In this document: one piece after another, positions 20,584 through 36,229 of the stretch
Layout of the letters: every line of letters starts with the position of its first letter
How positions within the stretch are numbered: position 1 is the first letter of the stretch
Source of the DNA: Sulfurospirillum deleyianum DSM 6946
GTDB lineage: Bacteria > Campylobacterota > Campylobacteria > Campylobacterales > Sulfurospirillaceae
Direction of reading: 5' to 3'
DNA: 64,000 nt
Assembly: GCF_000024885.1 (NCBI RefSeq)
Contig: NC_013512.1
Span: forward strand, 2,046,001-2,110,000
Translations under genes and position numbers: made by a program
The notes under the pieces: generated by a model
Told to the model about the DNA's origin: nothing
The model's input: the letters and a program-made list of their open reading frames with translations, nothing else
The model's database searches: none

Positions 20584-21530
20584 TTACTTCCCAAAATAGA
20601 GCTATCGCCTGTAATCACAGGAGGGTTCATCGCATCTTGTCCATTTTTCTTCATAATCGCTTGTCCTTCAGCGGAGAGCACAAAGTTGACAAACGCCACC
20701 GCACCTGCTTTGTTAGCTGGGGATTTATCATTTTGAAACACACTCAAACCATACACCATTGGCGCACCCACTTGCTTGACCACTTCACCTGGTTTTTTAC
20801 CATCAATGTTAAACGAAACTGATTTGTAAAAATCTTCAAATTTTGCATTTTTGAGATTAATCTCTTCAGGCAATGAAACATATTTGAGTTTGTGTTGGTC
20901 TGCTACGGATTTGTAAATATAAAGATAGTCATACTGATGAGACTCTAAAAGTCCTAATAAATCTGTCTCTTTCGGGCGAACAATCACTTTTTTAGCATTT
21001 TCTTCGCCAATTTCATAATGGTCACCATAACCAAAAATTTTCGCATAAAGCCCCTCTTTTTTATAGTGCTTTTCTGCCAGCATGGTAACTAACATAGAAC
21101 GATACCCACATGGATCTAAATTGGGATTGGAGTGACCCACCGTAACGCCCTCACGTAAAAAAATATCAGCCCAGTTATTGCTGTTAATCTCTTTAGCAAA
21201 TTTTGATTTTTCCGTATAGGCTAAAACCATCTCATTGGTTGCAAAATGAGCATTGAATTTGGCATGATTAGGAATTAACATCGTATCAATCACTTGATAA
21301 TCCGCACTTCCCATCACATCTGCCGCACGACCTAAATCCGTTACTTTACGTGCTGCTGCCACACTGCCACTTGGCTCTCGTTGAACATCAAACTGCGGAT
21401 ATTTGGTTTCAAATACTTTTTCAATCTCCGCAAATGGTACCGAAAGGCTCCCCGCATGCAATACTACAACAGGCTCTTTTGCTAACAACAAGGATGCCGC
21501 AAGCGCACTCAATACTAAAATTTTATTCAT
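20580..21530 (-). CDS. wtpA: tungstate-binding periplasmic protein
   Basis: 316 aa with signal peptide MNKILVLSALAASLLLAKEP. VVLHAGSLSVPFAEIEKVFE, EPSGSVAAARKVTDLGRAAD and NPNLDPCGYRS are hallmarks of the WtpA family, whose octahedral oxyanion coordination includes Asp and Glu; D/E residues are present in DLG and NLDPCG. These proteins usually prefer tungstate strongly over molybdate, but the sequence alone cannot settle it. Its 131-nt leader contains a structured element also found before fdhA. Confidence 0.85.
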   Translation of the reverse strand: MNKILVLSALAASLLLAKEPVVVLHAGSLSVPFAEIEKVFETKYPQFDVQREPSGSVAAARKVTDLGRAADVMGSADYQVIDTMLIPNHAKFNAHFATNEMVLAYTEKSKFAKEINSNNWADIFLREGVTVGHSNPNLDPCGYRSMLVTMLAEKHYKKEGLYAKIFGYGDHYEIGEENAKKVIVRPKETDLLGLLESHQYDYLYIYKSVADQHKLKYVSLPEEINLKNAKFEDFYKSVSFNIDGKKPGEVVKQVGAPMVYGLSVFQNDKSPANKAGAVAFVNFVLSAEGQAIMKKNGQDAMNPPVITGDSSILGSK

Positions 21531-21745: not shown

Positions 21746-22483
21746 CTACTCTTTAAACTCTTTTTTATTACGGGGCTTTAAAAACAACTCTTTGAAACGC
21801 TCATTGGCGTAGTTTTCAATATCTTCTTGAAGCTTTCGATAATTTTCCATGTATTCACGTGCTACAGGTGTCAGTTTCGTACCCGCATCTTCACCACCAC
21901 CTTGCTTGGTTTCAACCATCACATCGTTAATATTTTTTTGCAAAATCTTAATGTGCGTCCACGCTTTTTTATAATTCATCCCAATCACTTCTGAGGCTTT
22001 AGAGATAGAACCTTCTTGCTCAATGAGCTCTAAAATCTCGGTTTTACCTTTACCAAAAAGCAGTTCACCCTCAGCATTTTCGATCCATGTTTTCGTTTTG
22101 ACATACAAACGTGGACGCTTTTTTTCAGTAAAACACCCCAAACTACAATAAGTCACATCAATATTTTTTTCTTTGAGTGTCCCTCTGATTTTTTTAAGTC
22201 CAATGCCTCCTGCTTGCGCTCTGGCATCTTTACATGTAATACGATTTTTATCATCTAAAAAAGGACTCAAACGACTCAGTGCTTCCGCATCAAACGAGCC
22301 ACCCTCAACCCGACCAAATTGACCCAAGTCACACGAATCAATGCGTATGTCCATCGCTTTAGCGCAATCGCCTACTTCACGGATAGGGCATTTTAACTTT
22401 GAGGCAATCTTATAGGCATCCGCACAATCAAGCTTGCCTTTTTCATTCAAATACTGCTGAATCAACACTTCCATCTCAGACAT
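21746..22483 (-). CDS. ModE-type regulator with duplicated N-terminal Cys domain
   Basis: 245 aa. The C-terminal half has the ModE winged helix: ILELIEQEGSISKASEVIG, MNYKKAWTHIKILQKNI and the TKQGGGEDAGTKLT loop. It lacks TOBE/Mop domains. The N-terminal half instead contains two related units, DAYKIASKLKCPIREVGDC... CDLGQFG and DARAQAGGIGLKKIRG... CSLGCF, each with Cys, perhaps a metal or redox sensor. It lies between fdhD and wtpABC on the same strand, with a 3-bp gap to fdhD, so it may control both. Confidence 0.72.
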   Translation of the reverse strand: MSEMEVLIQQYLNEKGKLDCADAYKIASKLKCPIREVGDCAKAMDIRIDSCDLGQFGRVEGGSFDAEALSRLSPFLDDKNRITCKDARAQAGGIGLKKIRGTLKEKNIDVTYCSLGCFTEKKRPRLYVKTKTWIENAEGELLFGKGKTEILELIEQEGSISKASEVIGMNYKKAWTHIKILQKNINDVMVETKQGGGEDAGTKLTPVAREYMENYRKLQEDIENYANERFKELFLKPRNKKEFKE

Positions 22484-22485
22484 AC

Positions 22486-23274
22486 TTACGCCTCCACCAC
22501 AATTCTTTGAGGATGACGGTAAATATTCATCGTATCGCCTCTCACAAATCCAATCAGTGTTAAGCCAAATTTCTCTGCAATCATTAAACCTAAACAGGTT
22601 GATGCCGTTCTTGAAGCTAGAATGGGGATTTGATGCATGACCGCTTTGGCGACCATTTCAGAAGAGAGTCTTCCACTCACCATTAAAAAAGCATTTTTGA
22701 CATCCGCACCTGCAAGTACTGCTTTGCCCACGACTTTATCAATCGTATTGTGTTGGGCAATATCTTCACCAATAAAATAAGTATGCTCATCCGTAAAGAG
22801 TTTTGCCGTATGCACACAGCCTGTTTGCTCATACAAAGGACACTCGGTATAAAATTGACTCATTTCGGTGCTTAGTTTTCGGCTACTGAGTTTAAAAGGG
22901 CTTTGAATGACTTTTGCAGCAATCGCTTCAGGGTCGATGTTCGCAGTCATGCTCTTACCGCATCCACTAATCACCACGCCCTCAGCGTTTAATTTATGAA
23001 TACTCTCTTCATTCACTTTTGCTTCAATCTCCACACGCATACCATCATTTAAAAGTTTAAGGGAGGTGACATCGCTGAGTTTTTCAATGATATTTTCACT
23101 CATCAAATAGCCAATCGCAAGGGCTTCTTGATCCACAGGTGTTGCCATGACCGCACCCACACGATTGCCATTGACAATCAGTTCTAGCTTGATTTCACGC
23201 ACCAACGTGTCCTCTCGCTCGAATTTCTCTTTTCCTTTGATTTTTGTGATCGTAGTTTTAAAAACAGGTTCCAC
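22486..23274 (-). CDS. fdhD: formate dehydrogenase accessory sulfurtransferase FdhD
   Basis: 262 aa, the usual length. FdhD transfers sulfur to the Mo/W-bis-MGD cofactor before insertion into formate dehydrogenase. IKLELIVNGNRVGAVMATPV, LAIGYLMSENII and EDIAQHNTIDKVVGKA with MVSGRLSSEMVAKA are intact. The sulfur-carrying loop reads SGCGKSM: only the first Cys of the CxxC seen in E. coli FdhD is present. It leads the unit fdhD-regulator. A short GTAGCG/CGCTAC inverted repeat (23308-23336) lies in its promoter region. Confidence 0.9.
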   Translation of the reverse strand: MEPVFKTTITKIKGKEKFEREDTLVREIKLELIVNGNRVGAVMATPVDQEALAIGYLMSENIIEKLSDVTSLKLLNDGMRVEIEAKVNEESIHKLNAEGVVISGCGKSMTANIDPEAIAAKVIQSPFKLSSRKLSTEMSQFYTECPLYEQTGCVHTAKLFTDEHTYFIGEDIAQHNTIDKVVGKAVLAGADVKNAFLMVSGRLSSEMVAKAVMHQIPILASRTASTCLGLMIAEKFGLTLIGFVRGDTMNIYRHPQRIVVEA

Positions 23275-23400: not shown

Positions 23401-25629
23401 CTAAAACGTTAACCCAACACTTAGATAGGCACTAAAAGGTGCTCCTACAATATAGGTAGGCTGTGTTGTATCCGCAGCAAGAGCATTATCTGGTGTAATA
23501 ATAGAAGCAATATAACGTTTGTTAAACACATTGATAAAGCTCAACTTGACATCAGCCGACTTAAACCCTTTGATTTTGGGCAACCTATAATCAATGTCAA
23601 AATCAACCGTTGTAAACGAAGGAATTTTTTGTGTATGATCAACATTTCCATATCTGCTTCCTGTGTATTTAACGATAGGAGTAAATTTAAAATTTTCTAT
23701 TTTATACGTCAACGCTCCTTTAACACCGTACATCGGCGCATCAGGAATTTGATCCCCCTTAATAGAACTTATACTTATTGCACTCGTCTGAAAATCTTCT
23801 GTGTAGTAGTATTGGTTATAAAAAAGGCTTGCGAGAACATCAACAGACTCACCTAAAGGACCACTCATAGCAAATTCTGCGCCATAACTCATCGCATCTA
23901 TGCTATTGGTAGGATACGCTATGCCATAGTGAGAGTCATACACATTTGCCTGTTTTCCTGTTACTTTAGTAAAAAATAGATTTGGATTATAAACAATTCC
24001 ATTAGATTTATATTTCATCCCAATATCAAAATTATCAGACAATTCTAATTTTTGTTGATCCCATAATTGTTGTAGCGTTACATTTTTTGCGACAAACTTA
24101 GCACGATTTGTGACATACGTTGGAAATAGATTGACATCATATCCGTAACTTCTAGCATAATCAAAATAGATATCAATGTTATGCGTCAGTTGATAACCTA
24201 CATACACACTGGGCAACCACTCTGTAAATGTTTTGGCATCAACACTTCCCCATTCATCAACGGTTCCTTGAGCTATCGCCGTATCATAATCAGAACTGGT
24301 CGTAGCATTAGTACCAAAGGTATAATTTTTCAACCCTGCCAATTTAAAATCAAGGTATCGAATACCTAAAGAATAACTCAACCTATCTCTCTCTCCACAA
24401 AACTCTATAAAAGGTGAATTAAACTCATGGTATTGATTCTTAGCTAAAATATTCCATCCAGCATATTGTAATTGACCTGATGCGTTAATCGTATACAGTC
24501 TTCGACTTGATGGTGGTCCTGGAGGTTCTTGTCTGCCTCTCCAATATCCCATTTTCATACTTAACTCATCGTTTAAAGGAACTTCATACTCCAAAACACC
24601 TCCATACCTATCATGGTCAATTAACCATTCGATCTCTCTTGTTTTAGCATCATTTGCAAACCAATAGTTTCCTTTATCCTTTGAATAATAGGGTTTAAAG
24701 CGCATAACAGAATCATTGACAAAACGATACTCAACGTTCGCAGTTAAAACGGTGTCTTTAAAAGATTGTTTATTCCAATCATAATAATTTGAGCTTCCCA
24801 CGCTAGAGACACGATTCCAATCTTTTTTAGCATAGGTATCCAAATCTTTCGCTTCTGCATAGCTCAATCCATAATAATTATGGTGGTTATCTTCATTGTG
24901 GATGACAAACATTTCTGTTTTAAAATTATCATTAGGTGTATAAACCGCACCTAACATCATATTTTTCCTGTCTAAATCACCTTCGCCTTTCCATTTATCG
25001 CCACTTGTTTTAGAAAAAGACCCAAAAATTGCTACATCATCCATTTTCCCCGTATCAAATCGCAAAAAACTTCTTAAGGTCTTGTCTGAACCAACGGTTT
25101 GAGCAAATTGCGTTTCCATCTCTTTTTTAGGTCTAGCGACGGTTAAATCAACTTTACCTATAAGATTTGAAAATCCAAGACTTTTATCAACAGGTGCGTA
25201 CCCTTTATAAAGATCAATACCAGAAAAATTTTCCATATCAAACATGGTTTTACCGCCACCAGGATTACCACTAATGGGCAAGGATTCTAGCATATACACA
25301 CCCCCTGGTCCTGATTGATTTTTACCCCTGATTCTTAATGGATCATGAAAAGATGTTTCATTCGAACCAAATATTTCCGCAGGTTGATAATCCACAGATG
25401 GCGACATGCCAACAACTTTCAAAGCAGACATACCAACAGGTCCACTATAAAGCTCTATTGCTTCCTTGGTAAACCCCTGCGAATTGATATTATCTTTATT
25501 ATCTGTTTCAAAAATAGCACCCCCGTCACTCTCATTTGATACAGTCACTTTCTCTAACGTATACGTATCTTGGCTGTAAAGAATACTCAATGTAGCCATT
25601 AAACTCATCAAAATAACTTTTTGCTTCAT
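23401..25629 (-). CDS. TonB-dependent outer-membrane receptor
   Basis: 742 aa. Signal peptide MKQKVILMSLMATLSILYSQ, then a TonB-box-like segment TYTLEKVTVS, a plug domain (residues about 40-170; IRGKNQSGPGGVYMLESLP) and a beta-barrel ending in Phe (LSVGLTF). It is probably first served by the small membrane protein upstream and by the dedicated TonB-ExbBD. The neighbours are ModE regulators and tungstate genes, and a ModE-like box precedes the unit. I infer a molybdate/tungstate chelate or related metallophore as ligand; iron or cobalamin chelates remain possible. Confidence 0.85.
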   Translation of the reverse strand: MKQKVILMSLMATLSILYSQDTYTLEKVTVSNESDGGAIFETDNKDNINSQGFTKEAIELYSGPVGMSALKVVGMSPSVDYQPAEIFGSNETSFHDPLRIRGKNQSGPGGVYMLESLPISGNPGGGKTMFDMENFSGIDLYKGYAPVDKSLGFSNLIGKVDLTVARPKKEMETQFAQTVGSDKTLRSFLRFDTGKMDDVAIFGSFSKTSGDKWKGEGDLDRKNMMLGAVYTPNDNFKTEMFVIHNEDNHHNYYGLSYAEAKDLDTYAKKDWNRVSSVGSSNYYDWNKQSFKDTVLTANVEYRFVNDSVMRFKPYYSKDKGNYWFANDAKTREIEWLIDHDRYGGVLEYEVPLNDELSMKMGYWRGRQEPPGPPSSRRLYTINASGQLQYAGWNILAKNQYHEFNSPFIEFCGERDRLSYSLGIRYLDFKLAGLKNYTFGTNATTSSDYDTAIAQGTVDEWGSVDAKTFTEWLPSVYVGYQLTHNIDIYFDYARSYGYDVNLFPTYVTNRAKFVAKNVTLQQLWDQQKLELSDNFDIGMKYKSNGIVYNPNLFFTKVTGKQANVYDSHYGIAYPTNSIDAMSYGAEFAMSGPLGESVDVLASLFYNQYYYTEDFQTSAISISSIKGDQIPDAPMYGVKGALTYKIENFKFTPIVKYTGSRYGNVDHTQKIPSFTTVDFDIDYRLPKIKGFKSADVKLSFINVFNKRYIASIITPDNALAADTTQPTYIVGAPFSAYLSVGLTF

Positions 25630-25659
25630 CTTGAACCTTTATGTAAATTTTTTCAAAAC

Positions 25660-26115
25660 TTAAATCAAAAACATCAATTTAGCTAACAAAACAATCGCTA
25701 CACCCACCGTGAAAATGTAATAATAAGCAGAACTTTCAACGGGGTTTGGATCTTCTGCATTTTTTATCTTAAAGAGAAGGCGCTTTGTAATCGAAAACAC
25801 CACTTTGACTCCAATGCCATACGCAAGCAAGACTTTTATAATCAGCATTGTTTGAAACGTCGTAGGAAAAATGCCATTTTCAAACGTAAGATACTGCATA
25901 CTTAAAATCGTACCTGTCAAGATCAGTACCATCATGTTAGCGGGATAAATTTTCCAGACTCTTTTGGACAACTCTTTTTGTAAATTGTCAAAATTATCCT
26001 TACCAATCGTACCTTTAATAGGTGCTATAACAAACAGTTTTGCAAAGCCCCAACCCATAAATAACATTGCACAAAAGAGATGCACAATGAGTATTGTCTT
26101 GTATAGTAATTCCAT
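25660..26115 (-). CDS. four-helix membrane protein upstream of TonB receptor
   Basis: 151 aa with four hydrophobic helices. VHLFCAMLFMGWGFAKLFVI and WKIYPANMMVLILTGTILSM resemble CopD/DUF2269-type proteins, with possible haem or metal His near the start. It is 30 bp upstream of the receptor gene on the same strand and has an AAGGAG site. It may aid import across the inner membrane or act with the TonB complex; no function is known. Confidence 0.6.
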   Translation of the reverse strand: MELLYKTILIVHLFCAMLFMGWGFAKLFVIAPIKGTIGKDNFDNLQKELSKRVWKIYPANMMVLILTGTILSMQYLTFENGIFPTTFQTMLIIKVLLAYGIGVKVVFSITKRLLFKIKNAEDPNPVESSAYYYIFTVGVAIVLLAKLMFLI

Positions 26116-26198
26116 AAAAACTCCTTTTTAATGTAGTCAATCTCTAAAAAATATATAGCACTTAAAATGACACTGCCCTGTTTTACATGTAACCTATT

Positions 26199-26342
26199 TT
26201 AAAAGCTATAAGAATTGATTGTAGTGTTTAGCTTGCAGGATATCTTTATCATAGACACCTCAATTTTCTCTATCTCAAACGTTTCACTCATCAAAACAAA
26301 TACAATGATCCATAAAAGCACTAAGCCAACCTTGTATTTTTT
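26199..26342 (-). other. possible small or degenerate ORF in the 320-bp gap
   Basis: Between the ATPase gene and the four-helix protein, the minus strand shows an open frame reading KYKVGLVLLWIIVFVLMSE, then TFEIEKIEVSMIKISCKLNT and INSYSF. It looks like a short membrane peptide. A strong AAAAAGGAG lies upstream, but the in-frame codon at the right distance is not a normal start. It may be a micro-protein with a lost start or a gene remnant. The gap also contains a ModE-like box and one TTACATGTAA copy. Confidence 0.25.
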
Positions 26343-26369
26343 CTCCTTTTTAAATGATATGTACCAAAA

Positions 26370-26393
26370 CAATATATTTTATTTTATATAACG
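26370..26393. promoter_or_regulatory. ModE-like operator upstream of receptor unit
   Basis: Arms CAATATAT and ATATAACG with an 8-bp A/T spacer match the ModE layout (CGnTATAT, 8 bp, ATATAACG). The right arm is perfect. It lies upstream of the minus-strand four-helix protein and TonB receptor genes. Confidence 0.5.
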
Positions 26394-26435
26394 ATAAATC
26401 TGCCCTTACCCTAAAGAGATAATTTCCTCCTTCCG

Positions 26436-27218
26436 TTACTTAATATGCACAAACGATGGAATGCAAACAGAATACCCACATACGGTCTGTTTAAGCGCAA
26501 TGTTTGTGTTGTAAAGCTCGTTGATTAGCTCTTGTGTTATCGTTTCATGTGTATCACCATGCGCTAAAATCCTCCCTTTTTTTAAAGCATAGGTATACCC
26601 ACCCAACATCAAAGCATGTTCAGGGAAATGGGTAGATTTTAAAAAGGTATACCCCTCCTTGGAGAGGAGTATGATTGTTTCCAAAAGACGCAACTGATTG
26701 CCATAGTCTAAACCCGACACAGGCTCATCCATCACCAAGATTTTTGCCCCTTGCGCCAAAGAGCGTGCTATTAAGACCAACTGTTTTTCACCACCACTCA
26801 GCGTTTGAAAAGTGCATTTTTCCAAATGCAAAATACCCAACCGCTCCATCGCTGCATGCGCAAGGGAAATGTCTATTTTTGAGGCTCTTTTAAAGCACGA
26901 TTCAAAAGCAATGCGTCCCATGAGCACAATATCTAAAGCACAAAACGCAAACGCAACTTGTGTACTTTGAGGCACATAACTAATGTGTAAAGCACGTTCT
27001 TTAATCGAATAGTTTTTTAAAGGCTTTCCTTTGAGCATTACCTCGCCACACGTTGGATTGAGTAACCCTAAAAAAAGTTTCATTAAGGTACTTTTACCAA
27101 CCCCATTTGATCCAAGTAAAGAGACGATTGAACCCTCTTGTATGCATAAATCAACCCCTTGTAAAACCACTTTATCGTTGTAGGCAAAATGAAGATTACG
27201 TGCCTCATAAAAACTCAT
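26436..27218 (-). CDS. FecE/BtuD-type ABC transporter ATPase
   Basis: 260 aa. Walker A LGSNGVGKSTLMK, Q-loop SYVPQSTQVA, signature TLSGGEKQLVLIARSL and Walker B KILVMDEPVSGLD are intact, and the switch His is in KSTHFPEH. It belongs to the iron-siderophore/vitamin B12/MolC class of ATPases. Its start overlaps the permease stop by 4 bp. With the permease and the binding protein at 31171 it would complete a type II importer. Confidence 0.87.
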   Translation of the reverse strand: MSFYEARNLHFAYNDKVVLQGVDLCIQEGSIVSLLGSNGVGKSTLMKLFLGLLNPTCGEVMLKGKPLKNYSIKERALHISYVPQSTQVAFAFCALDIVLMGRIAFESCFKRASKIDISLAHAAMERLGILHLEKCTFQTLSGGEKQLVLIARSLAQGAKILVMDEPVSGLDYGNQLRLLETIILLSKEGYTFLKSTHFPEHALMLGGYTYALKKGRILAHGDTHETITQELINELYNTNIALKQTVCGYSVCIPSFVHIK

Positions 27219-28231
27219 ACAAATCCTTTTTTAGCATTGCGAAGTGCCAGCACAAAAATCGGTATTCCAATCAAAGATGTCGCAATCCCTATGGGAATTT
27301 CAATGTTCATAGAGATGCGACACAATGTATCTACGATGACTAAAAATAGAGCACCCAAAAGCGCACACATCGGAAGGAGCACACGATTATCCGCACCCAC
27401 CAAAAAGCGCGCGATATGCGGTATAATAAGACCTACCCAACCTATCATACCAGCAACCACAACCGTGAGTGTACTCAGCAAAGTAGCAAGTAAAATAGCG
27501 CTATTGCGTACCCATGCCACTCGCACACCCAGTGCTTTTGCATCATCATCACCAAGACTTAAAATGTTGAGGTATTTACCCATCAACGAAAGCATGATGG
27601 TACTAAAAAGTAGAGGCAGCGCTACACTGCTGAGTGTGTTCATATCGACAGCACTAAAAGAGCCCATCAGCCAGTAAACAATCGTTGGAAGCTTATTGTA
27701 CGGGTCAGCAACAAACTTGGTAACGGAGAGAAGCGCTGAGAATAAAGAACTAGAAATAACGCCACCCAAAACCAATAAAATCATTTGTGAGCTATTCTTT
27801 CCATATATTTTTGCTACGACAAGAGCGACTAAAACGGCTACAAAACCAAATAAAAACGCAAAGAGTTGTACCCCTAACCAACTATCAGAAATCATGATGC
27901 CAAGGGCTGCCCCAAACGAGGCGCCCGCTAAAACACCCAATATGCCAGGAGAGACCAATGGATTGACAAACATCGCTTGAAACGCTCCACCAGAAACTGA
28001 AAGCGCAGCCCCTACAAGAAGAACGGCTAAAATACGTGGCAAGCGAATATCAAAAACAATGTTAGTAAGCAATACCACCTCATGGGGTGTCTCACCTATG
28101 TTAAAAAACTTCCATGCCAAAAACTGCCAAAGCGTCCCTAATTCAATCTCATAACGTCCCAATGCTAAAGAGATAAGCACGCTTGTAGCAAGACTGACTA
28201 CCATTAAACTAAAAAAAAGTGAATTTTTCAT
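27215..28231 (-). CDS. FecCD/BtuC-type ABC permease
   Basis: 338 aa with about ten transmembrane helices. LPRILAVLLVGAALSVSGGA, FQAMFVNPLVSPGILGVLAG and ARFLVGADNRVLLPMCALLG are family signatures. This class imports chelates (siderophores, B12) and, in Haemophilus MolBC, bare molybdate/tungstate. It precedes the ATPase in one unit. The 173-bp gap to the upstream tonB holds no recognisable riboswitch. Confidence 0.87.
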   Translation of the reverse strand: MKNSLFFSLMVVSLATSVLISLALGRYEIELGTLWQFLAWKFFNIGETPHEVVLLTNIVFDIRLPRILAVLLVGAALSVSGGAFQAMFVNPLVSPGILGVLAGASFGAALGIMISDSWLGVQLFAFLFGFVAVLVALVVAKIYGKNSSQMILLVLGGVISSSLFSALLSVTKFVADPYNKLPTIVYWLMGSFSAVDMNTLSSVALPLLFSTIMLSLMGKYLNILSLGDDDAKALGVRVAWVRNSAILLATLLSTLTVVVAGMIGWVGLIIPHIARFLVGADNRVLLPMCALLGALFLVIVDTLCRISMNIEIPIGIATSLIGIPIFVLALRNAKKGFV

Positions 28232-28404
28232 TTGCTATCCAATATTTTTCTATTTTCACCAAGACTCTCTACACTCTCCACGTAGTAACACAACAAGGTG
28301 CAAGAAGAGCAAGATTTTTCTATTCGGGCTATTTACACACCCTGTTGTACGCTATAAACCAACAACAGCCTAACAAGAAACTAGCATGACACATTGAAAA
28401 CTTC

Positions 28405-29097
28405 TTATGAAGTGAGTTTAAAAACAACAGGGACTTTAATCTCGATCTCCTCATGGGGAGGAAACTCAAAAGGCACTGCTTCAAGCACAGCATCAATCGC
28501 ATTGCGATCCAAAAGTACTTTGCCACTAGACTTTGCGATCTTAATCGATGTAGCATCGACCATTCCATTGGTATGAATTAAAAATTGCACCACGGTCTCA
28601 CCCTCTATACCCATCTTTTTTGCCGCAGAAGGATAACGAAGGCTCTCTTGAATTTTATCTCTTACTTTAGCGAGATAGACCAAAAGCAGGTCATCCTTGC
28701 GCTTTGAGAGCGTTGTTCTCATCGGTGCTTCTTGCGCCTTTGGCGTAACTGGCAATACCTCTGCTTGCTCCTTGATAGGCACATTGGAATGTATCGTTTT
28801 TTCTACAACAAGCTCTTGGATGGGCTTTTGAATGGGAAACGTTTTTGCCGATACTTTTGGCACTTTTTTTTCAAGCTTTTGCTCAACAATAGGCTTTATT
28901 TTACGTGGAAGCTCTTGCAAAATCTCCTGATGAATCATCTCAGGTTTTAGCTCCTCTAAAAAACTCACCTCTGTGATAATTAACTCTCTTATAGGAGGCT
29001 TAGGCAGCATGTCACTTCCTATAAAAAGTGCACACCCAATCAAAACATGCACCAAAAGTGTCCCAAAAGAGGCAACAACGAAATGGGATGTTTTCAC
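28405..29097 (-). CDS. tonB: TonB energy-transducing protein
   Basis: 230 aa. One N-terminal transmembrane helix (VVASFGTLLVHVLIGCALFI), a Pro/Lys/Glu-rich periplasmic linker with PIQKPIQELVVEK-like repeats, and a C-terminal TonB domain: SLRYPSAAKKMGIEGETVVQ and AVPFEFPPHEEIEIKVPVVF. It overlaps exbD by 4 bp. Being placed with a receptor and a FecCD transporter suggests it is dedicated to that system. Confidence 0.88.
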   Translation of the reverse strand: MKTSHFVVASFGTLLVHVLIGCALFIGSDMLPKPPIRELIITEVSFLEELKPEMIHQEILQELPRKIKPIVEQKLEKKVPKVSAKTFPIQKPIQELVVEKTIHSNVPIKEQAEVLPVTPKAQEAPMRTTLSKRKDDLLLVYLAKVRDKIQESLRYPSAAKKMGIEGETVVQFLIHTNGMVDATSIKIAKSSGKVLLDRNAIDAVLEAVPFEFPPHEEIEIKVPVVFKLTS

Positions 29098-29501
29098 ACT
29101 CCCCCCTTCGTTGTCTGAATCACAAACGTGCTAATGCGATGCTTTTTACAAATGTCGATGACCTTGACCACATGCTCAAACGGCGTTTTTGCATCACTTC
29201 TCAGTACGATATGAGGCTCTTGAGTGTTCATGCACGCTATTTTTGTGTCTAACGCTTCTATGGAAAGCGCCACATCATCACAATAGAGTTCTCCCACTTC
29301 TGTGAGTGATAAAACCATAGGCTTTTTCTCATCTTTTTGGTTTTGAGCATTGGATGCATGGGGGAGCGTAAGCGGAATTTTGCCTTGGGTAACAAACGTA
29401 GCTGTCACCATAAAAATGACTAAAATAACTAAGACGATGTCCACAAAAGGAGTCATATTAATCTCAGCAATATCACTTTCATAAGAAGGTTCACGCTTCA
29501 T
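29094..29501 (-). CDS. exbD: ExbD proton-channel subunit
   Basis: 135 aa. IAEINMTPFVDIVLVILVIF holds the membrane Asp essential for proton coupling, followed by a periplasmic domain (VVLSLTEVGELYCDD, HIVLRSDAKTPFEHVVKVI). It overlaps exbB by 11 bp and tonB by 4 bp. Confidence 0.9.
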   Translation of the reverse strand: MKREPSYESDIAEINMTPFVDIVLVILVIFMVTATFVTQGKIPLTLPHASNAQNQKDEKKPMVLSLTEVGELYCDDVALSIEALDTKIACMNTQEPHIVLRSDAKTPFEHVVKVIDICKKHRISTFVIQTTKGGV

Positions 29502-29937
29502 TGAGCTGTGCCTCTTTTTGAGTTAAGAAAACCTTGACACGTCTGGTAAAATAGTTATACGCAATAACACAAGGAATAGCAACAAAAAGCCCCGTTGCCG
29601 TGGCAATCAGCGCTTCAGAGATACCTTGCATAATAGGTTGAACATCAAAAGCGTTATTAGAGCCTATCGCATGAAACGCTTGAATAATACCCAACACCGT
29701 TCCAAAAAGCCCAATAAATGGTGCGTTGTTACCAAAGGTCGCTAATATGCCCAAACGCGATTCAAGACTGAGTCGCAACGTATAATAATCCATCGTTTGA
29801 TACTTCGTTTGAATTGCGCTAAACACTAAAAAACGCTCAATCATCACCCCAACAGCAATCATACTCATAACAACCAATACCCAAAGGACAGGGTCAATCC
29901 CTAGAAGGGCAAACGATAAAAGCTTTTCACTCAGCAT
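29491..29937 (-). CDS. exbB: ExbB proton-channel subunit
   Basis: 148 aa, the short form typical of campylobacterota. Three transmembrane helices, with RLGILATFGNNAPFIGLFGT, VLGIIQAF and ALIATATGLFVAIPCVIAYN carrying the conserved Thr residues of the channel. It is the first gene of exbB-exbD-tonB-permease-ATPase. Two inverted repeats of ModE type lie upstream, so metal supply probably controls it. Confidence 0.9.
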   Translation of the reverse strand: MLSEKLLSFALLGIDPVLWVLVVMSMIAVGVMIERFLVFSAIQTKYQTMDYYTLRLSLESRLGILATFGNNAPFIGLFGTVLGIIQAFHAIGSNNAFDVQPIMQGISEALIATATGLFVAIPCVIAYNYFTRRVKVFLTQKEAQLNEA

Positions 29938-29987
29938 CTTTTCTCCTTGATTAAAAACATTTTCTATGCCTTTACAACTCTCTAACA

Positions 29988-30016
29988 GTCGTTATTTACT
30001 TTATATAAATAACGAC
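29988..30016. promoter_or_regulatory. perfect 11-bp inverted repeat upstream of exbB
   Basis: GTCGTTATTTA and TAAATAACGAC are exact complements separated by CTTTATA, 51 bp before exbB. The CGTTAT/ATAACG cores are those of ModE sites, with a 9-bp rather than 8-bp core spacing. It is a strong operator candidate for the exbB unit. Confidence 0.65.
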
Positions 30017-30058
30017 CAATAAAACGAACAATAAGAATTAAGAGACATTGCATTATAT

Positions 30059-30082
30059 CGTAATATAATTATAAATATAACG
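30059..30082. promoter_or_regulatory. ModE-like operator between exbB and the ModE-TOBE gene
   Basis: CGTAATAT, 8-bp spacer AATTATAA, ATATAACG: 7 of 8 arm positions are symmetric and match the ModE consensus. It lies between divergent exbB and the regulator gene, so may act on both. The rest of the 29938-30284 gap has no other clear feature. Confidence 0.65.
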
Positions 30083-30284
30083 AAAATTTTAGCTTCTCTT
30101 TTTTACATGCGCTATGACTTACATCAAGAATGATGCTCAAACAAAGAGACATTGGCTCTTTCCATAAGTTCTTTAAAATCATTTTAGGATGCGTGTTCTA
30201 ATATAAATCATTGTAAAAATTGACGATTGATTTATGATTTGGTTATACTTTAGAGAACATAAAGATCGTAAGAAGGTGATACCC

Positions 30285-31058
30285 ATGTTAGAAGCACGAC
30301 TTTGGATGAAAAAAAGCAACAAAAACTACCTTGGTAAAGGACGTATTGAACTACTAGAGCGCATTCGTGAACATGGATCTATCCATGCTGCCGCTAAAGC
30401 AATGAAGATGAGTTATAAAGCTGCTTGGGACTCCGTCGATGCGATGAATAACCTCTCCGAAACACCCCTTGTCGAAAAAATCAGTGGTGGAAAAGGAGGT
30501 GGTGGGACACATTTAACAGCCAAAGGTGAAGAGGTAATAGCCGCTTTTCATAACCTTCAAGTGAAACATCAACAATTTTTAGATCTTTTTGGAAGCAGTG
30601 ATAATTTAGCAACCATTGTTCAAACACTGAATCGTCTTTCATTAAAACTTAGCGCTCGTAACCAACTTATCGGCACAATTAGCGCCATAAGAGAATCTCC
30701 TGTTAATGTACAAATAGAACTTACCATAAAGGCAGCCAATAAAATTTATGCTAGCATTACCAAAAACAGTTATCAAGAATTAGGACTCCACCTTGGCGAT
30801 AGCGCTATTGCTATTATCAAAGCCAGTTCAATTTTTCTCTCAAAAACGAAACCTACCATTGCGTGTGAAAACCTCTTACAGGGCAAAATCATTCAAATTC
30901 TCAGCGATACCTCTAGCACGGAAATCACCTTAGAACTAGAAAGTAAAAGTACGATTACAGCGACGATTTCAAATGAAGCATTCGAACCTTTAGGGTTAAA
31001 AATCAATGAAGAAACATATATTTTCTTTAAAGCATCTAACGTTATTTTAGGTATTTAA
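30285..31058 (+). CDS. modE: ModE molybdate/tungstate-responsive regulator with two TOBE domains
   Basis: 257 aa from the ATG at 30285, chosen because AGAAGGTG lies 7 bp upstream and the ModE homology begins at once; a frame 17 codons longer is possible. The N-terminal winged helix has ELLERIREHGSIHAAAKAMK, MSYKAAWDSVDAMNN and GGKGGGGTHLTAKG. Two Mop/TOBE repeats follow (RNQLIGTISAIRESPVNVQI, LLQGKIIQILSDTSSTEITL), which bind oxyanions in ModE dimers. This is the full E. coli-like architecture, unlike the TOBE-less regulator at 21746. It is divergent from exbB, across two operator-like repeats. Confidence 0.88.
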   Translation: MLEARLWMKKSNKNYLGKGRIELLERIREHGSIHAAAKAMKMSYKAAWDSVDAMNNLSETPLVEKISGGKGGGGTHLTAKGEEVIAAFHNLQVKHQQFLDLFGSSDNLATIVQTLNRLSLKLSARNQLIGTISAIRESPVNVQIELTIKAANKIYASITKNSYQELGLHLGDSAIAIIKASSIFLSKTKPTIACENLLQGKIIQILSDTSSTEITLELESKSTITATISNEAFEPLGLKINEETYIFFKASNVILGI

Positions 31059-31117
31059 AGCCAATACGCCTTGATAAATTTCTAAACTTTTAATTTTAGA
31101 AAGAACTTTAAGATTTT

Positions 31118-31141
31118 CATTATATATTTATTTATACAATG
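31118..31141. promoter_or_regulatory. ModE-like operator before binding-protein/radical SAM operon
   Basis: CATTATAT, 8-bp spacer, ATACAATG, 29 bp before the start codon, where it would overlap the promoter. It shares the CATT variant with the site at 34024. Confidence 0.45.
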
Positions 31142-31170
31142 CAAAGACATTTTCCATACGGAGGCGTTTT

Positions 31171-32193
31171 ATGCATGTGTTCATTTTTTTTCTACTGTTC
31201 GTAACCTCACTTTTTGCAAATGAGTCGCGAACATTTTTAGATGTTAGCAACAAGCCTATTGTACTTCCTGAGCATATCACTCGCATTTATGGCTCAGCTC
31301 CACCCATTAGTTTTATGATTTATGTCATTGATGACACCCCACTGATTGGTGTTAATTCTCCACAAACAAATAAAGACAACAACAATGGTGAAAAATTTTT
31401 AAGTAAACATTTCATGGAACTTCCTATTTTAGGAGGTTGGCATGGCAACAATATTCCCAATTTAGAAGCAATTTTAGCCGCAAAGCCTGATGTAATTATC
31501 ACATGGGATACGCCACTACTCAATGAAAAAACAGCTAAAGATTTAGCACGCATTTCTATTCCTGCTCTGAAAGTAAATATTGACGATTCGCAAAACTACC
31601 CTGAGGTTTTTCGCTACCTTGGAAGAGTTATGCAAAAAGAAGAGCGTGCCAATGCACTAGCTAACATGGCGCAAACCTATTTAGATGAGCTCAAAACTTT
31701 TGTAGCAAGTATCCCTGAAAAAGAGCGTACCAAAGTCTATTACGCTGAAGGTGATTTTGGGCTTCAAACAGAATGTGACCGCTCTTTTCACTCTGAACCT
31801 TTAGCCCTAGCTGGAGGTAACTTAGTGCATAAATGCGTGCAAAACAGTGTTGTAGGATTACAAGAAGTAAGTTTTGAACAGATTATTTTATATGACCCAG
31901 AAGTTATCATCGTTCAAAATCCAACGTTTTATAAAACCGTCTTTCGTGAGAAAAAATGGGCAGTGCTCAAAGCCGTTCAAAATAAAAAAGTATACTTAGT
32001 CCCAAAATCCCCCTTTAATTGGACAGATAGACCACCTTCTTTTATGCGTATTCTTGGGGCACATTGGATTGCGAGCAAACTCTATCCCACACGCTATCCC
32101 TATAAAATTGAAGACAAAGTCAAAGCATTTTATCAGCTCTTTTTTGGTGTTGAACTCAGTAACGAAGATTTAAAAACCTATTTTAAGTTATAG
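31171..32193 (+). CDS. class III (FecB/BtuF/MolA-type) periplasmic binding protein
   Basis: 340 aa with signal peptide MHVFIFFLLFVTSLFANESR. Two lobes joined by a long helix: N-lobe (HITRIYGSAPPISFMIYVI, NLEAILAAKPDVIITWDTP) and C-lobe (RTKVYYAEGDFGLQTECDRS, FHSEPLALAGGNLVHK, VSFEQIILYDPEVIIV). This is the soluble partner of FecCD transporters; the permease and ATPase just across the divergent promoter are the obvious match. The preceding ModE gene and operator suggest a molybdenum/tungsten ligand. GGAGG precedes the start. Confidence 0.83.
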   Translation: MHVFIFFLLFVTSLFANESRTFLDVSNKPIVLPEHITRIYGSAPPISFMIYVIDDTPLIGVNSPQTNKDNNNGEKFLSKHFMELPILGGWHGNNIPNLEAILAAKPDVIITWDTPLLNEKTAKDLARISIPALKVNIDDSQNYPEVFRYLGRVMQKEERANALANMAQTYLDELKTFVASIPEKERTKVYYAEGDFGLQTECDRSFHSEPLALAGGNLVHKCVQNSVVGLQEVSFEQIILYDPEVIIVQNPTFYKTVFREKKWAVLKAVQNKKVYLVPKSPFNWTDRPPSFMRILGAHWIASKLYPTRYPYKIEDKVKAFYQLFFGVELSNEDLKTYFKL

Positions 32194-32210
32194 CAACAAA
32201 AGGATATTTT

Positions 32211-33992
32211 ATGATTTGCCCGATTTGTGAACGACGATGCCATGTCGAAGAAAAAGGCATTGGGATGTGTGGTCGCTATGAATGCCAAGACCATGCCATG
32301 ATAGAGCGTTTTCCAAACGCATACCTTGTTGTAGCACCCATTTCAGCAGAAACCATGCCTGTGCTGCACTTTCACCCTCGTGCCAAATTTTTGCAAATCA
32401 GCACCACTGGGTGTAATTTTGACTGTTTGGGGTGCATCTCAACCGTGGTTGCTAAGGAGATGAATGTACAAAGCCCAGCGCTTAAAAAGCTTTCGCCGAT
32501 GCAAATTATCAACAAAGCCTTAGAGCAAGCGTGTGATGGCATTGTTTTTCTTATGAATGACCCTCTCGCCTCGTTTTACACCTTTTTAGAGATTTGCACA
32601 CTGGCTAAAAAACATGGACTTTTGACAGGGTGCTCTACCAATGGTTATTTTACGCAAAAATCCCTAGCCTTACTTTCCCCTTATTTGGATTTTGTCAATA
32701 TTGGGCTTAAAGGCTTGTGCAATGATGTTTACCGTAGTTGCGGTGCGTCCAGCTACAAGCCTGTATTACGCAATATCGAGCTTTTTCACCATCAAGGTGT
32801 GCACGTTGAAGTGGCGTGCATTCATAAAACAGACAACGAAGAAGAGCTTTTAAAAATTGCCCAAACATTGGCAAACATCTCCAAAGAGATTCCCCTCCAA
32901 ATTATGCGATTTATCCCTATTGAAGATGCGAGCATCACCCTAGAGCCTTCCATCTTAGCATCTGAAACCCTTTACAAAAAACTCTTATCGCATCTTGATT
33001 ACGTCTATCTTTTCAACTCCCCTGGAACGGAGTCTTTAAATACTCACTGCCCTAAATGTGGCGCATTGATTTTTGAGCGAGATTTTTACGGTCCTATGGG
33101 CGCAAAGCTAAGAGCCATTCACCCAAACTATCACAAACACACCTGCCCAAACTGCCATCACATTCTTCCCATCAAAGGAGAGCCTGCCGAAAAAATCTTC
33201 AATGAAGATGGTTTTGAAGGCGGCTATCCACTCACAAGAGCGTTGGAAATCGTAGAGGGAACACTTGCGACACTAGGCGTAAAGAAGCAAAAAGATGTCA
33301 CCGCATGTTGGGAAAAACTCTTGCAAAATGATGGACTACGACGCTTACATGTAAACATTCAAAACTTTGACGATTATGCCAACACAATAAAGTATCTTGC
33401 AAACCTCACCCACAAAGAAACTCTGGCTCAAAAGCTCCTTGCTTACATGAGAGAAAAGATTGCCATAATCACCCAAGAATTACCCAAAATTGACGTTAAA
33501 CCACGGGTCTATTATGTGATGGGAAAACCCTTATTTGCACTCGAAGAAGAACGCCTTGAAAATCAGTTGGTTGAAATGGCAGGTGGTATCAGTGTCAATA
33601 AAGGGCTGGATTTGCAGGGAAGACCTGGAAAAAAGATATCTGTCGAAATGCTCAACGCACTCAACCCTGATATTATCTTTATCTCATCATTTTTAGACTG
33701 CCCGCTCGATGAGTTTTACATGTATTGTGAAAAACAAGGCATCGTCGTCGAAGCACTCAAACAAAAACGTATCTACACACACCTTGCACCCTGTTTTGAT
33801 TTTGGAAGCCCCCGTTGGATTTTGGGCTTGATGCACATCGCCAACATGCTCCATCCAACGCTTTACCATTTCGATGTTTTAGAAGAGGCTAAAGTCTTTT
33901 ACCGCCTCTTTTATGAAAGCACCTTTAGCCTCCCCACGCTCAATCGTTCCTTTGCAAAACCAAGCCAATATCACACAATGGTTCAAATTTAG
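32211..33992 (+). CDS. radical SAM protein fused to a cytoplasmic binding-protein lobe
   Basis: 593 aa, no signal peptide. Residues 3-25 hold a Cys cluster (CPICERRC...CGRYEC), as in AmmeMemoRadiSam/PflA-like enzymes. C68, C72 and C75 form the radical SAM CX3CX2C motif (TTGCNFDCLGC). A four-Cys zinc-ribbon follows at 280-315. From about residue 430 the chain matches the C-lobe of the neighbouring periplasmic protein: VYYVMGKPLFALEEERLENQ, LVEMAGGISV, EMLNALNPDIIFIS and a C-terminal VFYRLFYE helix. The binding lobe is therefore cytoplasmic. It begins 18 bp after the binding-protein gene and is probably cotranscribed. I infer a role in modifying or releasing the imported metal chelate; no characterised homologue of this fusion is known to me. 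Confidence 0.8.
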   Translation: MICPICERRCHVEEKGIGMCGRYECQDHAMIERFPNAYLVVAPISAETMPVLHFHPRAKFLQISTTGCNFDCLGCISTVVAKEMNVQSPALKKLSPMQIINKALEQACDGIVFLMNDPLASFYTFLEICTLAKKHGLLTGCSTNGYFTQKSLALLSPYLDFVNIGLKGLCNDVYRSCGASSYKPVLRNIELFHHQGVHVEVACIHKTDNEEELLKIAQTLANISKEIPLQIMRFIPIEDASITLEPSILASETLYKKLLSHLDYVYLFNSPGTESLNTHCPKCGALIFERDFYGPMGAKLRAIHPNYHKHTCPNCHHILPIKGEPAEKIFNEDGFEGGYPLTRALEIVEGTLATLGVKKQKDVTACWEKLLQNDGLRRLHVNIQNFDDYANTIKYLANLTHKETLAQKLLAYMREKIAIITQELPKIDVKPRVYYVMGKPLFALEEERLENQLVEMAGGISVNKGLDLQGRPGKKISVEMLNALNPDIIFISSFLDCPLDEFYMYCEKQGIVVEALKQKRIYTHLAPCFDFGSPRWILGLMHIANMLHPTLYHFDVLEEAKVFYRLFYESTFSLPTLNRSFAKPSQYHTMVQI

Positions 33993-34023
33993 ACACACTC
34001 CTCTTGTACTTCCCTTCAAAATT

Positions 34024-34047
34024 CATTATAGTTTTAAATATATAATG
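34024..34047. promoter_or_regulatory. ModE-like inverted repeat before methyltransferase remnant
   Basis: CATTATAG, 8-bp spacer, ATATAATG. The wider repeat AAATTCATTATA / TATAATGAATTT is a perfect 12-bp pair around a 10-bp loop, extended by CCTTC/GAAGG with one bulged base. It could be an operator or a terminator of the radical SAM gene. Confidence 0.45.
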
Positions 34048-34064
34048 AATTTTGAAGGATTTTC

Positions 34065-34626
34065 ATGGAACAAAAGTTGGCTTTTTGGGACAACATGGCG
34101 AAGCGTTATCCACGTTTTAATGACGCATCAATAAGCAAAGATATCCATCCTATCTTAAACTGGTGTCACGGCCATTGATGTTTCAGAGGGTATGCTAAAA
34201 GCGCTCAATGAAGATGCTATCCAAACAGGCGTGTCGCACCATGTCCAAACCCATCAAAGCGATTGGGGTACTTTGGCGCTGACAACACAATATGACATTG
34301 TCATCGCTTCCATGACTCCTGCGATTAATAACGTACAAAAAATTGAAAAAATACTGGGTGCGAGTAAACAACTTGGCATTTACGTCGGCTGGGAAAAATA
34401 CCGCACCAACAAACTTGTAGAAGCTTCAGTCAAAGCGCATACACTCAAAGAAGAGGAATACTCGTTTGAAGAAGCCAAGGAGTATGCTTACGAACAGCTT
34501 GGTCGAAAAGAGCTCACCCCTAATGATACCATCATCGAATCTATCCTCATCAAGCACATGCAAAACGATCAAGTTATCGTGAAAACACAAGCCGAAAAAG
34601 GGGTTGTGTTGTGGAAAGCAACTTAA
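34065..34626 (+). pseudogene. SAM-dependent methyltransferase, broken by internal deletion
   Basis: From the ATG at 34065 the frame reads MEQKLAFWDNMAKRYPRFND, a typical methyltransferase start, then stops near 34177. In another frame TGVTAIDVSEGMLKALNEDA begins at once and continues, intact, to 34626. The missing piece is motif I (the GxGxG SAM-binding loop) plus a frameshift, so a deletion removed the cofactor site. The downstream half keeps YDIVIASMTPAINNVQKIEK. It follows the radical SAM fusion gene and may once have belonged to that pathway. Confidence 0.8.
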
Positions 34627-34690: not shown

Positions 34691-35590
34691 TTAAACCTTA
34701 CCTTCTTCTTTGAGTTTTCTATACCAAGAACTGTGAAGGATGGCAACCTCTTCTTCTTCTTTATAGCCTGTAATCATAGAGTGAATTGCGCCTTTAATCG
34801 CAATCGCTGCCATGTAAACATGTACCATAAAAAACGTCGCTACGACCATACCCAATACATTGTGGATAATCGCCGAGATACGGAGTAAATCAATTTGACT
34901 GACCCCAAAAAGTGTTGCCACAGGAGAGAGGTTAATGTTTAAGAAGAACATCAACGCTCCTGTTAAAATCATTAAAATACCACCAGGCATTGCAATCCAA
35001 AACCATGCCTTTTGACCTGCGTTAAACTTACCCGCAGGAATTGGCTTTTTCTCTTTGGAAAGATATCCGCCTACGATCATCATCCACTTGACATCATCCA
35101 TGTTGAAAATCATATCTCGAATCCATGCAATGATCATAGGAAGGACGGTAATCGCAAAAACAGGTGTGGCAATCCCGTGAAGGTTCTTACACACACGAAC
35201 AAAGGTTCCACCTCCGAAGAAGTCTCCAAACGCCATAATAAATCCTGTGGGCACTAACACCAAAAAGGAGAGTGCCGCAAGGTTGTGCATGACTCGCATC
35301 AACAAGCTAAATGCAAAGATTTTCTTGCCATCATGCGAAAACACTTTAGGTCCAATAATCATATAGTGAATCGAACCTGCAACCGGAACTAAAAAGAGCG
35401 CAATCAAAAACCCTTTCCAAAACCACTCACGTTGGAGGTAGGTAAAAACCTCTCCAAACGCAAAGTATTTTGGAATAGCATTGAGCATAGCTGTTCCATA
35501 CAAAGGGTCATCATACGTTCCTGTGCTTATGGCATATAAAGAGGTCATCGAAAGTAACAAGCTGCTTAAGAGCACAAGGTACTTTTTCAT
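34691..35590 (-). CDS. fdhC: formate dehydrogenase cytochrome b subunit
   Basis: 299 aa with signal-like start MKKYLVLLSSLLLSMTSLYA and about four core transmembrane helices. It anchors the enzyme and passes electrons from formate to menaquinone. Candidate haem His lie in MRVMHNLAALSFLVLVPTGF, VCKNLHGIATPVFAI, IHNVLGMVVATFFMVHVYMA. It overlaps fdhB by 4 bp and is last in the operon, before a strong terminator. Confidence 0.9.
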   Translation of the reverse strand: MKKYLVLLSSLLLSMTSLYAISTGTYDDPLYGTAMLNAIPKYFAFGEVFTYLQREWFWKGFLIALFLVPVAGSIHYMIIGPKVFSHDGKKIFAFSLLMRVMHNLAALSFLVLVPTGFIMAFGDFFGGGTFVRVCKNLHGIATPVFAITVLPMIIAWIRDMIFNMDDVKWMMIVGGYLSKEKKPIPAGKFNAGQKAWFWIAMPGGILMILTGALMFFLNINLSPVATLFGVSQIDLLRISAIIHNVLGMVVATFFMVHVYMAAIAIKGAIHSMITGYKEEEEVAILHSSWYRKLKEEGKV

Positions 35591-36219
35591 TGTGTAAGCC
35601 CTTTTCTGCTTTGTTTATTATAGGCAACATTCCAAAGATAAGAGTTATTTGCCTCTTTACTCTCTCCACGAGCTAGAACACGTGTACGATAAAGTTCAGA
35701 AACTTTCTCAGAGGTTCCAATCATCAAAGCATTGGTCGAACACATCGCCGCACACACAGGAACTTTTCCCTCAGAGATACGATTTTGACCATAGGTATGA
35801 CGCTCTATTTCAGAGTTGGTTTCAAGTGGACCACCTGCACACATGGTACATTTATCCATGGCACCTTTAGCGCCAAAGACACCATCTTTTGGAAACTGAG
35901 GCGCACCAAAAGGACATGCGTATAAGCAGTATCCACATCCAATACATTTTTCTTTATCATGAAGCACAATACCATCTTCACGAATATAAAAACAATCCAC
36001 TGGACACACTTGTGAACATGGAGCGTCAGAGCAGTGCATACACGCAATCGAGATAGAGGTCTCTTTGCCCTCCACACCATCATTAAGCGTTACGACCTTA
36101 CGTCGTGCAATGCCCACAGGGAGTTCATGCGCATTTTGACAAGCAACCACACAAGCAAAACACTCAATACATCTCTCTGCATCACAATAAAATTTTAGAC
36201 GACTGTTGATATTTTCCAT
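35587..36219 (-). CDS. fdhB: formate dehydrogenase iron-sulfur subunit
   Basis: 210 aa from the ATG at 36219, which has AAGGAG upstream; a frame extending to 36363 overlaps fdhA and is not credible. Sixteen Cys in four ferredoxin-type clusters are visible: CIECFACVVAC, CMHCSDAPCSQVC, CIGCGYCLYAC, CTMC with CAAMC. It carries electrons from the catalytic subunit to the cytochrome b subunit. It lies 10 bp after fdhA. Confidence 0.92.
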   Translation of the reverse strand: MENINSRLKFYCDAERCIECFACVVACQNAHELPVGIARRKVVTLNDGVEGKETSISIACMHCSDAPCSQVCPVDCFYIREDGIVLHDKEKCIGCGYCLYACPFGAPQFPKDGVFGAKGAMDKCTMCAGGPLETNSEIERHTYGQNRISEGKVPVCAAMCSTNALMIGTSEKVSELYRTRVLARGESKEANNSYLWNVAYNKQSRKGLTQ

Positions 36220-36229
36220 AGGGCTCTCC

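Follow-up and report, generated by a model that had tools for sequence, protein, structure and literature searches.

Iron, cobalamin and a small number of further cargoes are well known to be taken up actively with the help of TonB; a genetically defined TonB-driven route for molybdenum (Mo) or tungsten (W) finds no description within the literature that we searched. Here we analyse a locus of Sulfurospirillum deleyianum DSM 6946, which, with a probability of about 0.6, is a ModE-controlled, TonB-powered importer of a Mo- or W-containing compound, most likely a chelate. It occupies 23401-34626 of a 64-kb window (2046001-2110000 of the 2,306,351-bp single-contig genome), and coordinates are positions in this window unless another sequence is named.

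Among the closest described systems, MolABC (HI1470-HI1472) of Haemophilus influenzae is a low-affinity molybdate/tungstate importer (PMC4031551). It resembles the S. deleyianum system in coupling a FecCD/BtuCD-type importer to a class III binding protein, in our case a predicted one, for Mo or W. However, its binding protein belongs to a separate clade with other site residues, and it has no known receptor, private ExbB-ExbD-TonB, ModE boxes of the S. deleyianum kind or radical S-adenosylmethionine (SAM) partner. The YiuABC-YiuR system of Yersinia, described as iron-siderophore uptake (PMC5683015), likewise combines a receptor, a class III binding protein and a FecCD importer, and YiuA has a fold like that of the C-terminal domain of the radical SAM fusion discussed below; yet it is an iron-chelate system and distant in sequence. 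Proteus and an Escherichia coli plasmid carry an operon with the order binding protein-permease-ATPase-methyltransferase-ModD-TonB receptor, which is of the same transporter type with a receptor, a methyltransferase and a Mo gene but in which neither a radical SAM fusion nor a linked ModE was seen; literature searches found no published function for it. In Zymomonas, the nif cluster includes modD and modE as well as two TonB receptors (PMC8594446). A first-pass annotation of this DNA had set the locus against MolABC: the contrast in the receptor is right, and our tree places the binding protein apart from MolA, but the Proteus, E. coli plasmid and Zymomonas clusters are receptor-containing relatives with Mo genes. 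We found no literature description of a TonB/ModE/ModD molybdenum system, a weak negative given that most subscription papers lay outside the search. The component families are all known; as far as we could find, their combination in a ModE-controlled TonB/FecBCD system with private ExbB-ExbD-TonB and a fusion of a radical SAM domain to half a solute-binding protein (SBP) is undescribed, and the locus is one member of a wider, apparently uncharacterised group.

By its gene content the locus encodes every stage of import from the outer membrane through the inner one, together with a private energiser. On the minus strand lie a TonB-dependent outer-membrane receptor of 742 aa (23401..25629; PF00593, E=1.2e-22) and, upstream of it, a small four-helix membrane protein (25660..26115; weak CopD match below cut-off), with orthologues at 90% and 87%, respectively, in the related locus L035. 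These are followed by an ABC ATPase of the FecE/BtuD type (26436..27218; PF00005, E=1.1e-30; 82-84% in syntenic loci), a FecCD-type (type II) permease (27215..28231; PF01032, E=3.1e-77) and the dedicated TonB (28405..29097; PF03544, E=1.8e-15), ExbD (29094..29501; PF02472, E=1.3e-31) and ExbB (29491..29937; PF01618, E=7.8e-32), the last three together spanning 28405-29937. The plus strand carries the genes for ModE, the class III periplasmic binding protein and the radical SAM fusion, and a methyltransferase pseudogene. All genes named in the first-pass annotation were recovered in place by gene calls and profile matches. In the receptor, an alignment to TIGR01783, below cut-off, spans residues 88-723, and the plug domain PF07715 was not reported at E<=0.001. 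Receptors 45-48% identical to it adjoin related FecBCD loci in other genera. In L155 (G208:C1:974001-993000), a locus used as a control which may itself be Mo-linked, a 58% relative of the four-helix protein stands with a different receptor, and three sites resemble ModE boxes.

The regulator (30234..31058, plus strand) consists of a helix-turn-helix (HTH) and two Mop/TOBE domains, and matches TIGR00637 at 99.2 bits (cut-off 98.5) and TIGR00638 at 110.5 bits (cut-off 55). In alignment with E. coli ModE (1B9M; E=2.7e-31) the SARNQ motif, the T/S pair and the molybdate-site lysine are conserved: the letters are identical at all five positions that we take to be the molybdate ligands of the E. 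coli protein (S126, R128, T163, S166 and K183), for which the ligand roles of such residues are established. Judged by these features, the gene product is a full molybdate-type ModE. It shares with its E. coli counterpart the HTH, tandem Mop domains, conserved molybdate ligands and operator, but in S. deleyianum the strict operators sit in a TonB/FecBCD locus and nowhere else in the genome.

This last point rests on pattern searches with the E. coli ModE consensus, ATCGNTATATA-N6-TATATANCGAT (PMC545781), which was published and not derived from the boxes of the locus, and is thus independent of it. With at most 3 mismatches of 20, it has two sites in the whole 2.3-Mb genome, both inside the locus and both scoring 17/20: box 1 (26368..26395) and box 2 (30057..30084), the latter between exbB and modE and at the same place in relatives. 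The reversed pattern gave 0 matches genome-wide at the same limit, and Markov-shuffled windows gave 0 sites of at least 16/20 in 20 trials. The distance of about 250 nt from box 1 down to the four-helix gene is explained by the loss of another receptor gene, which L035 still has at this place; about 140 bp around the box match the 5' end of that L035 gene as a remnant. Also between exbB and modE is a second palindrome, TCGTTATTTACTTTATATAAATAACGA (29990..30018), a 27-bp spacing variant read in the sequence and outside the consensus-scan scoring. A looser pattern, TCRTTATA-N10-TATAAYGA, which is partly circular as it was partly drawn from boxes of the locus, has 7 matches in the window versus 1.3 expected. 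It adds box 3 (31116..31143; 14/20, 2 mismatches to the looser pattern), some 28 nt ahead of the start codon of the binding-protein gene, and box 4 (34022..34049; 14/20, 0 mismatches), which precedes the methyltransferase pseudogene and is kept before intact orthologues. Since the genome matches of this pattern at 3 mismatches are mostly noise (about 70 sites versus 49 in the control), the main operator claim draws on strict matches alone. The earlier placement of ModE-like boxes before the four-helix/receptor unit, exbB, the binding-protein unit and the methyltransferase remnant is borne out, with a box at each of the four.

The operators bear on whether the locus might be a siderophore or haem iron system brought under ModE, for instance through catechol ligands serving both iron and molybdenum. 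While a TonB receptor, FecCD and a class III binding protein make up the classic iron-chelate kit, relatives carry truncated globins, and the fold is also that of YiuA, whose structure was solved with iron ligands, such a role appears distinctly unlikely: the genes have conserved ModE boxes and no Fur box of at least 14/19 between 23 and 35 kb of the window (the three elsewhere in the window are at background level), Mo genes recur beside the binding-protein family, and in the tree most same-phylum FecB-type control proteins are placed away from the binding protein.

Turning back to import of a Mo or W compound, a second operon of the same genome (L113; 808001-824000 of the genome) has the order methyltransferase-SBP-FecCD-ATPase-FmdE-like-CrcB-DUF190-ModE-ModD. 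Its box, at 817963, is a near-perfect palindrome, top-ranked by the looser pattern, before an intact methyltransferase gene. The second ModE matches at 39% and the ModD-like protein at 33-36% to ModD of Proteus, the E. coli plasmid and related loci; the FmdE-like protein was identified by reading. As L113 adjoins a paralogous formate dehydrogenase, two FecBCD loci of this genome combine a box with a formate dehydrogenase as neighbour.

Across Sulfurospirillum the locus follows the order ATPase-FecCD-SBP2-(flavin monooxygenase)-(truncated globin)-TonB-ExbD-ExbB / ModE-(globin)-(receptor)-SBP1-(radical SAM fusion)-methyltransferase. Ten Sulfurospirillum loci have boxes at matching promoters, namely those of exbB/modE, the methyltransferase, the receptor and the globin. 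These ten (198 kb) hold 33 sites of at least 15/20 and 15 of at least 16/20, related loci of other genera (257 kb) 11 of at least 16/20 and control loci (357 kb) 3, counts of related sequences, which do not represent independent events. The boxes in other genera precede genes for a globin (L118), an SBP (L124), receptors (L127, L130 and L131) and modA (L117). Other Campylobacterota genera have the same binding-protein family with FecCD and receptors, often together with a monooxygenase, globin, ModE, modAB and ModD. Mo genes (ModE, ModD, modAB and others) stand beside 14 of 34 related loci outside the genus versus 0 of 19 other FecB-type loci (Fisher p=0.0008; overlapping control L160 removed), the loci having been chosen by similarity to the query and the related ones not being independent. 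This comparison of the gene set, which the first-pass annotation had suggested as a check, agrees with its Mo/W assignment. 'wtp/mod-like' genes beside L034 and L038-L040 were not counted as Mo genes, being on reading a sulfate CysPTWA-type set.

The binding protein (31171..32193, plus strand; Peripla_BP_2) is identical over residues 17-340 to PDB 4PAG, an entry titled 'ABC transporter solute binding protein from Sulfurospirillum deleyianum DSM 6946'. Its closest sequence relative with a known ligand is MolA (3PSA; E=2.7e-16), and YiuA (E=5e-6) and BtuF are distant relatives. In the tree it groups with Campylobacterota and alphaproteobacterial/ModD-linked proteins; the Pasteurella MolA-type protein and proteins of Klebsiella and Pantoea form a clade of their own, which is starred and also takes in five 'control' proteins. 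On this sequence evidence the S. deleyianum protein is not a MolA orthologue. The tree positions of the fusion domain and of SBP_b are unusable owing to long branches. The conserved site motifs, ECDxSxH, HxC and DRPPSFMR, differ from those of MolA: 63 of the 64 Campylobacterota relatives have C202 and C222, which the proteobacterial relatives (27-32% identity) lack, and H207, H220 and R287 are mostly conserved among relatives. Alphaproteobacterial sister proteins adjoin Mop, Glp/MoeA and modA. By genus, the Shinella relative adjoins glp, Mop and modA, that of Rhizobium Mop and glp, that of Indioceanicola modA and TOBE, and that of Azospirillum ramasamyi modA and fdhE; the Bartonella relative stands with a receptor and a monooxygenase and no Mo gene.

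A free-oxyanion importer would explain part of this: the binding protein would take molybdate or tungstate as MolA does, and the receptor would help scarce or thio-forms (thiomolybdate/thiotungstate) in sulfidic habitats. Among relatives whose ligand is known MolA comes closest, and it is also one of the top folds for the C-terminal domain of the fusion; the permease is of the same type and the sister proteins adjoin modA and Mop. We nevertheless regard it as unlikely, given that the binding protein lies outside the MolA clade with a different conserved site, and that free oxyanions normally cross porins, so that a dedicated receptor with its own ExbB-ExbD-TonB is unexpected. Moreover, the adjoining wtpABC transporter (18833..21530, minus strand; WtpA equivalog above cut-off) already serves free tungstate/molybdate. 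Cobalamin riboswitches are frequent but not universal in BtuBFCD uptake loci; the window has no Rfam match at gathering scores and hence no cobalamin riboswitch. This, with neighbours that are Mo/W and not cobalamin genes, makes an importer of corrinoids or another cofactor, including a pterin/molybdenum-cofactor scavenger, highly improbable, even though the best family matches of the permease are BtuC models (below cut-off) and BtuF is a distant relative of the binding protein.

In the reading that we favour the cargo is a chelate, since the dedicated receptor points to something large or scarce. From gene content, ModE type, operators, synteny and Mo-gene neighbourhood we infer the direction of regulation, the cargo and each enzymatic step as follows. 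At low cytoplasmic molybdate/tungstate ModE would leave its boxes and the unit would be expressed; the receptor, energised by the private ExbB-ExbD-TonB, would carry the compound across the outer membrane, and the 31171 binding protein (4PAG) would pass it to the FecCD-ATPase importer. The metal would be released in the cytoplasm, possibly aided by the radical SAM/half-binding-protein fusion and, in relatives, by the methyltransferase, flavin monooxygenase and truncated globins; once freed, it might supply the neighbouring W/Mo formate dehydrogenases. TonB-dependent uptake and processing of a Mo/W chelate had been proposed for the locus before: TonB-dependent uptake under a molybdate-type ModE is supported, with a strong genomic link to Mo/W, an organic chelate as cargo is plausible, and processing is unproven.

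Several observations weigh against our reading. ModE control is by itself no proof of Mo or W in the cargo, literature searches found no assigned substrate for 4PAG, and the receptor has no sequence relatives in PDB at E<=0.001. The region has no recognised genes for metallophore synthesis, so the chelate could come from other organisms. Boxes are rare in the loci of families f2 and f3 (2 sites of at least 16/20 in 330 kb). The Mo-gene comparison is tempered by the choice of loci noted above and by imperfect controls, five of which adjoin MolA in the tree, with L155 possibly ModE-linked.

The fusion (32211..33992, plus strand) is AmmeMemoRadiSam-like over its N-terminal ~320 residues, the remainder being a reduced class III binding-protein domain; profile matches support both halves, and fold matches include PFL-AE/NifB and MolA/YiuA/4PAG. 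Its cysteines C68/C72/C75 (CxxxCxxC), C3, C6, C10, C20, C280 and C283 are invariant. No signal peptide was seen on reading of the sequence, and the protein is thus probably cytoplasmic. The radical SAM half shares its cysteine motifs with AmmeMemoRadiSam proteins at 26-30% identity, but the C-terminal half of the fusion is Peripla_BP_2-like, and there is no MEMO/AMMECR1 partner domain. In alignment this half misses about 50 N-lobe core residues and is without ECDxSxH, HxC and DRPPS. Modelled alone (pLDDT, predicted local distance difference test, 82), it keeps its C-lobe intact, the N-lobe being helical, and has MolA, YiuA and 4PAG among the top fold matches; the model of the whole fusion is weak (pLDDT 61). 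The idea that the fusion reads the same ligand as the binding protein is weakened by the lost motifs and by the replacement of the N-lobe core with helices in the model. Searches turned up the whole protein in Sulfurospirillum and its close relatives (Sulfurospirillaceae) alone, and in 7 of 15 sampled Sulfurospirillum genomes; the ~600-residue radical SAM frames of family f7 were rejected as the same protein, as they are a different fusion with a MEMO-like domain. Any role of the fusion in cargo release or modification is a guess, and the processing role earlier suggested for it is unproven, the protein being missing in about half of the genus and its ligand motif lost.

Equally unproven is processing by the methyltransferase, which is dead in S. 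deleyianum and common beside non-Mo FecBCD loci. The class I SAM methyltransferase at 34066..34626 (plus strand) is intact in relatives, and alignment with L035 and L033 confirms the suspected remnant as a pseudogene, which against L035 has lost 98 nt (a frameshift, in SAM motif I) and 108 nt; its start is 34066 and not 34192. Genes for such enzymes also stand beside 7 of 19-20 control loci, and the methyltransferase was therefore rejected as a Mo marker. Compared with relatives, S. deleyianum has also lost SBP2 and one receptor. In the gap at 28232..28404, the site of the second binding-protein gene in relatives and, in some of them, of genes for a flavin monooxygenase and a truncated globin as well, short collinear fragments suggest gene decay, and a search of the S. 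deleyianum genome found no copy of the globin or monooxygenase. This copy of the locus is eroded.

A broader proposal, tentative and in our view rather doubtful, is that Campylobacterota own a dedicated, TonB-dependent and ModE-controlled route for Mo/W metallophores, in which the chelate is cracked by cytoplasmic enzymes, namely the flavin monooxygenase and truncated globin in some lineages and the radical SAM/half-binding-protein fusion in Sulfurospirillum. If true, this route would be for Mo or W what siderophore systems are for iron. The locus couples the candidate Mo/W route to a molybdenum regulator and to W/Mo formate dehydrogenases, and the identity of the 4PAG cargo could help to revise the annotation of receptors and FecBCD importers that are at present ascribed to iron uptake.

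As to the flanks, the first-pass annotation was correct in placing the locus next to wtpABC, fdhD and a W/Mo enzyme, as the WtpA equivalog, fdhD and a formate dehydrogenase confirm. Beyond wtpABC, these comprise an HTH-ModE protein with fdhD (21746..23274, minus strand; gene calls and profile matches) and the formate dehydrogenase genes fdhC, fdhB and fdhA, a molybdopterin enzyme (34691..39094, minus strand; profile matches and a scan for selenocysteine insertion sequences, SECIS). An in-frame TGA splits fdhA, so that 38528-39094 continues into 36230-38479 (minus strand), and a SECIS_3 match lies at 38475-38533 (minus strand; 32 bits, below gathering score). Hence, the gene probably encodes a selenocysteine formate dehydrogenase.

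Some further patterns emerged around the related loci. A sulfate CysPTWA-type transporter adjoins the locus in L034, L039, L040, L114, L115 and L150, several of them with a single-domain Mop-like protein, and genes for CrcB (a fluoride channel) and DUF190 repeatedly flank Mo-linked loci (L034, L036, L037, L041, L113, L115 and L151). In L132-L147, mostly from family f3 genomes, receptor-SBP-FecCD-ATPase-methyltransferase clusters are largely without E. coli-type ModE boxes and may use another operator. A distinct truncated-globin subfamily (HHHxLLxKS, RHxPF, FWNWIExLSxRMINRRT) occurs by Mo-linked FecBCD genes in L117, L118, L122, L123, L126, L131 and L150, sometimes with a ModE box. Finally, a Paraburkholderia plasmid (NZ_CP022991.1, 7716-13117; L088) has a truncated-globin homologue and an LLM flavin monooxygenase between nifQ and modBA with a TOBE protein, and both types also occur in Sulfurospirillum-type loci.

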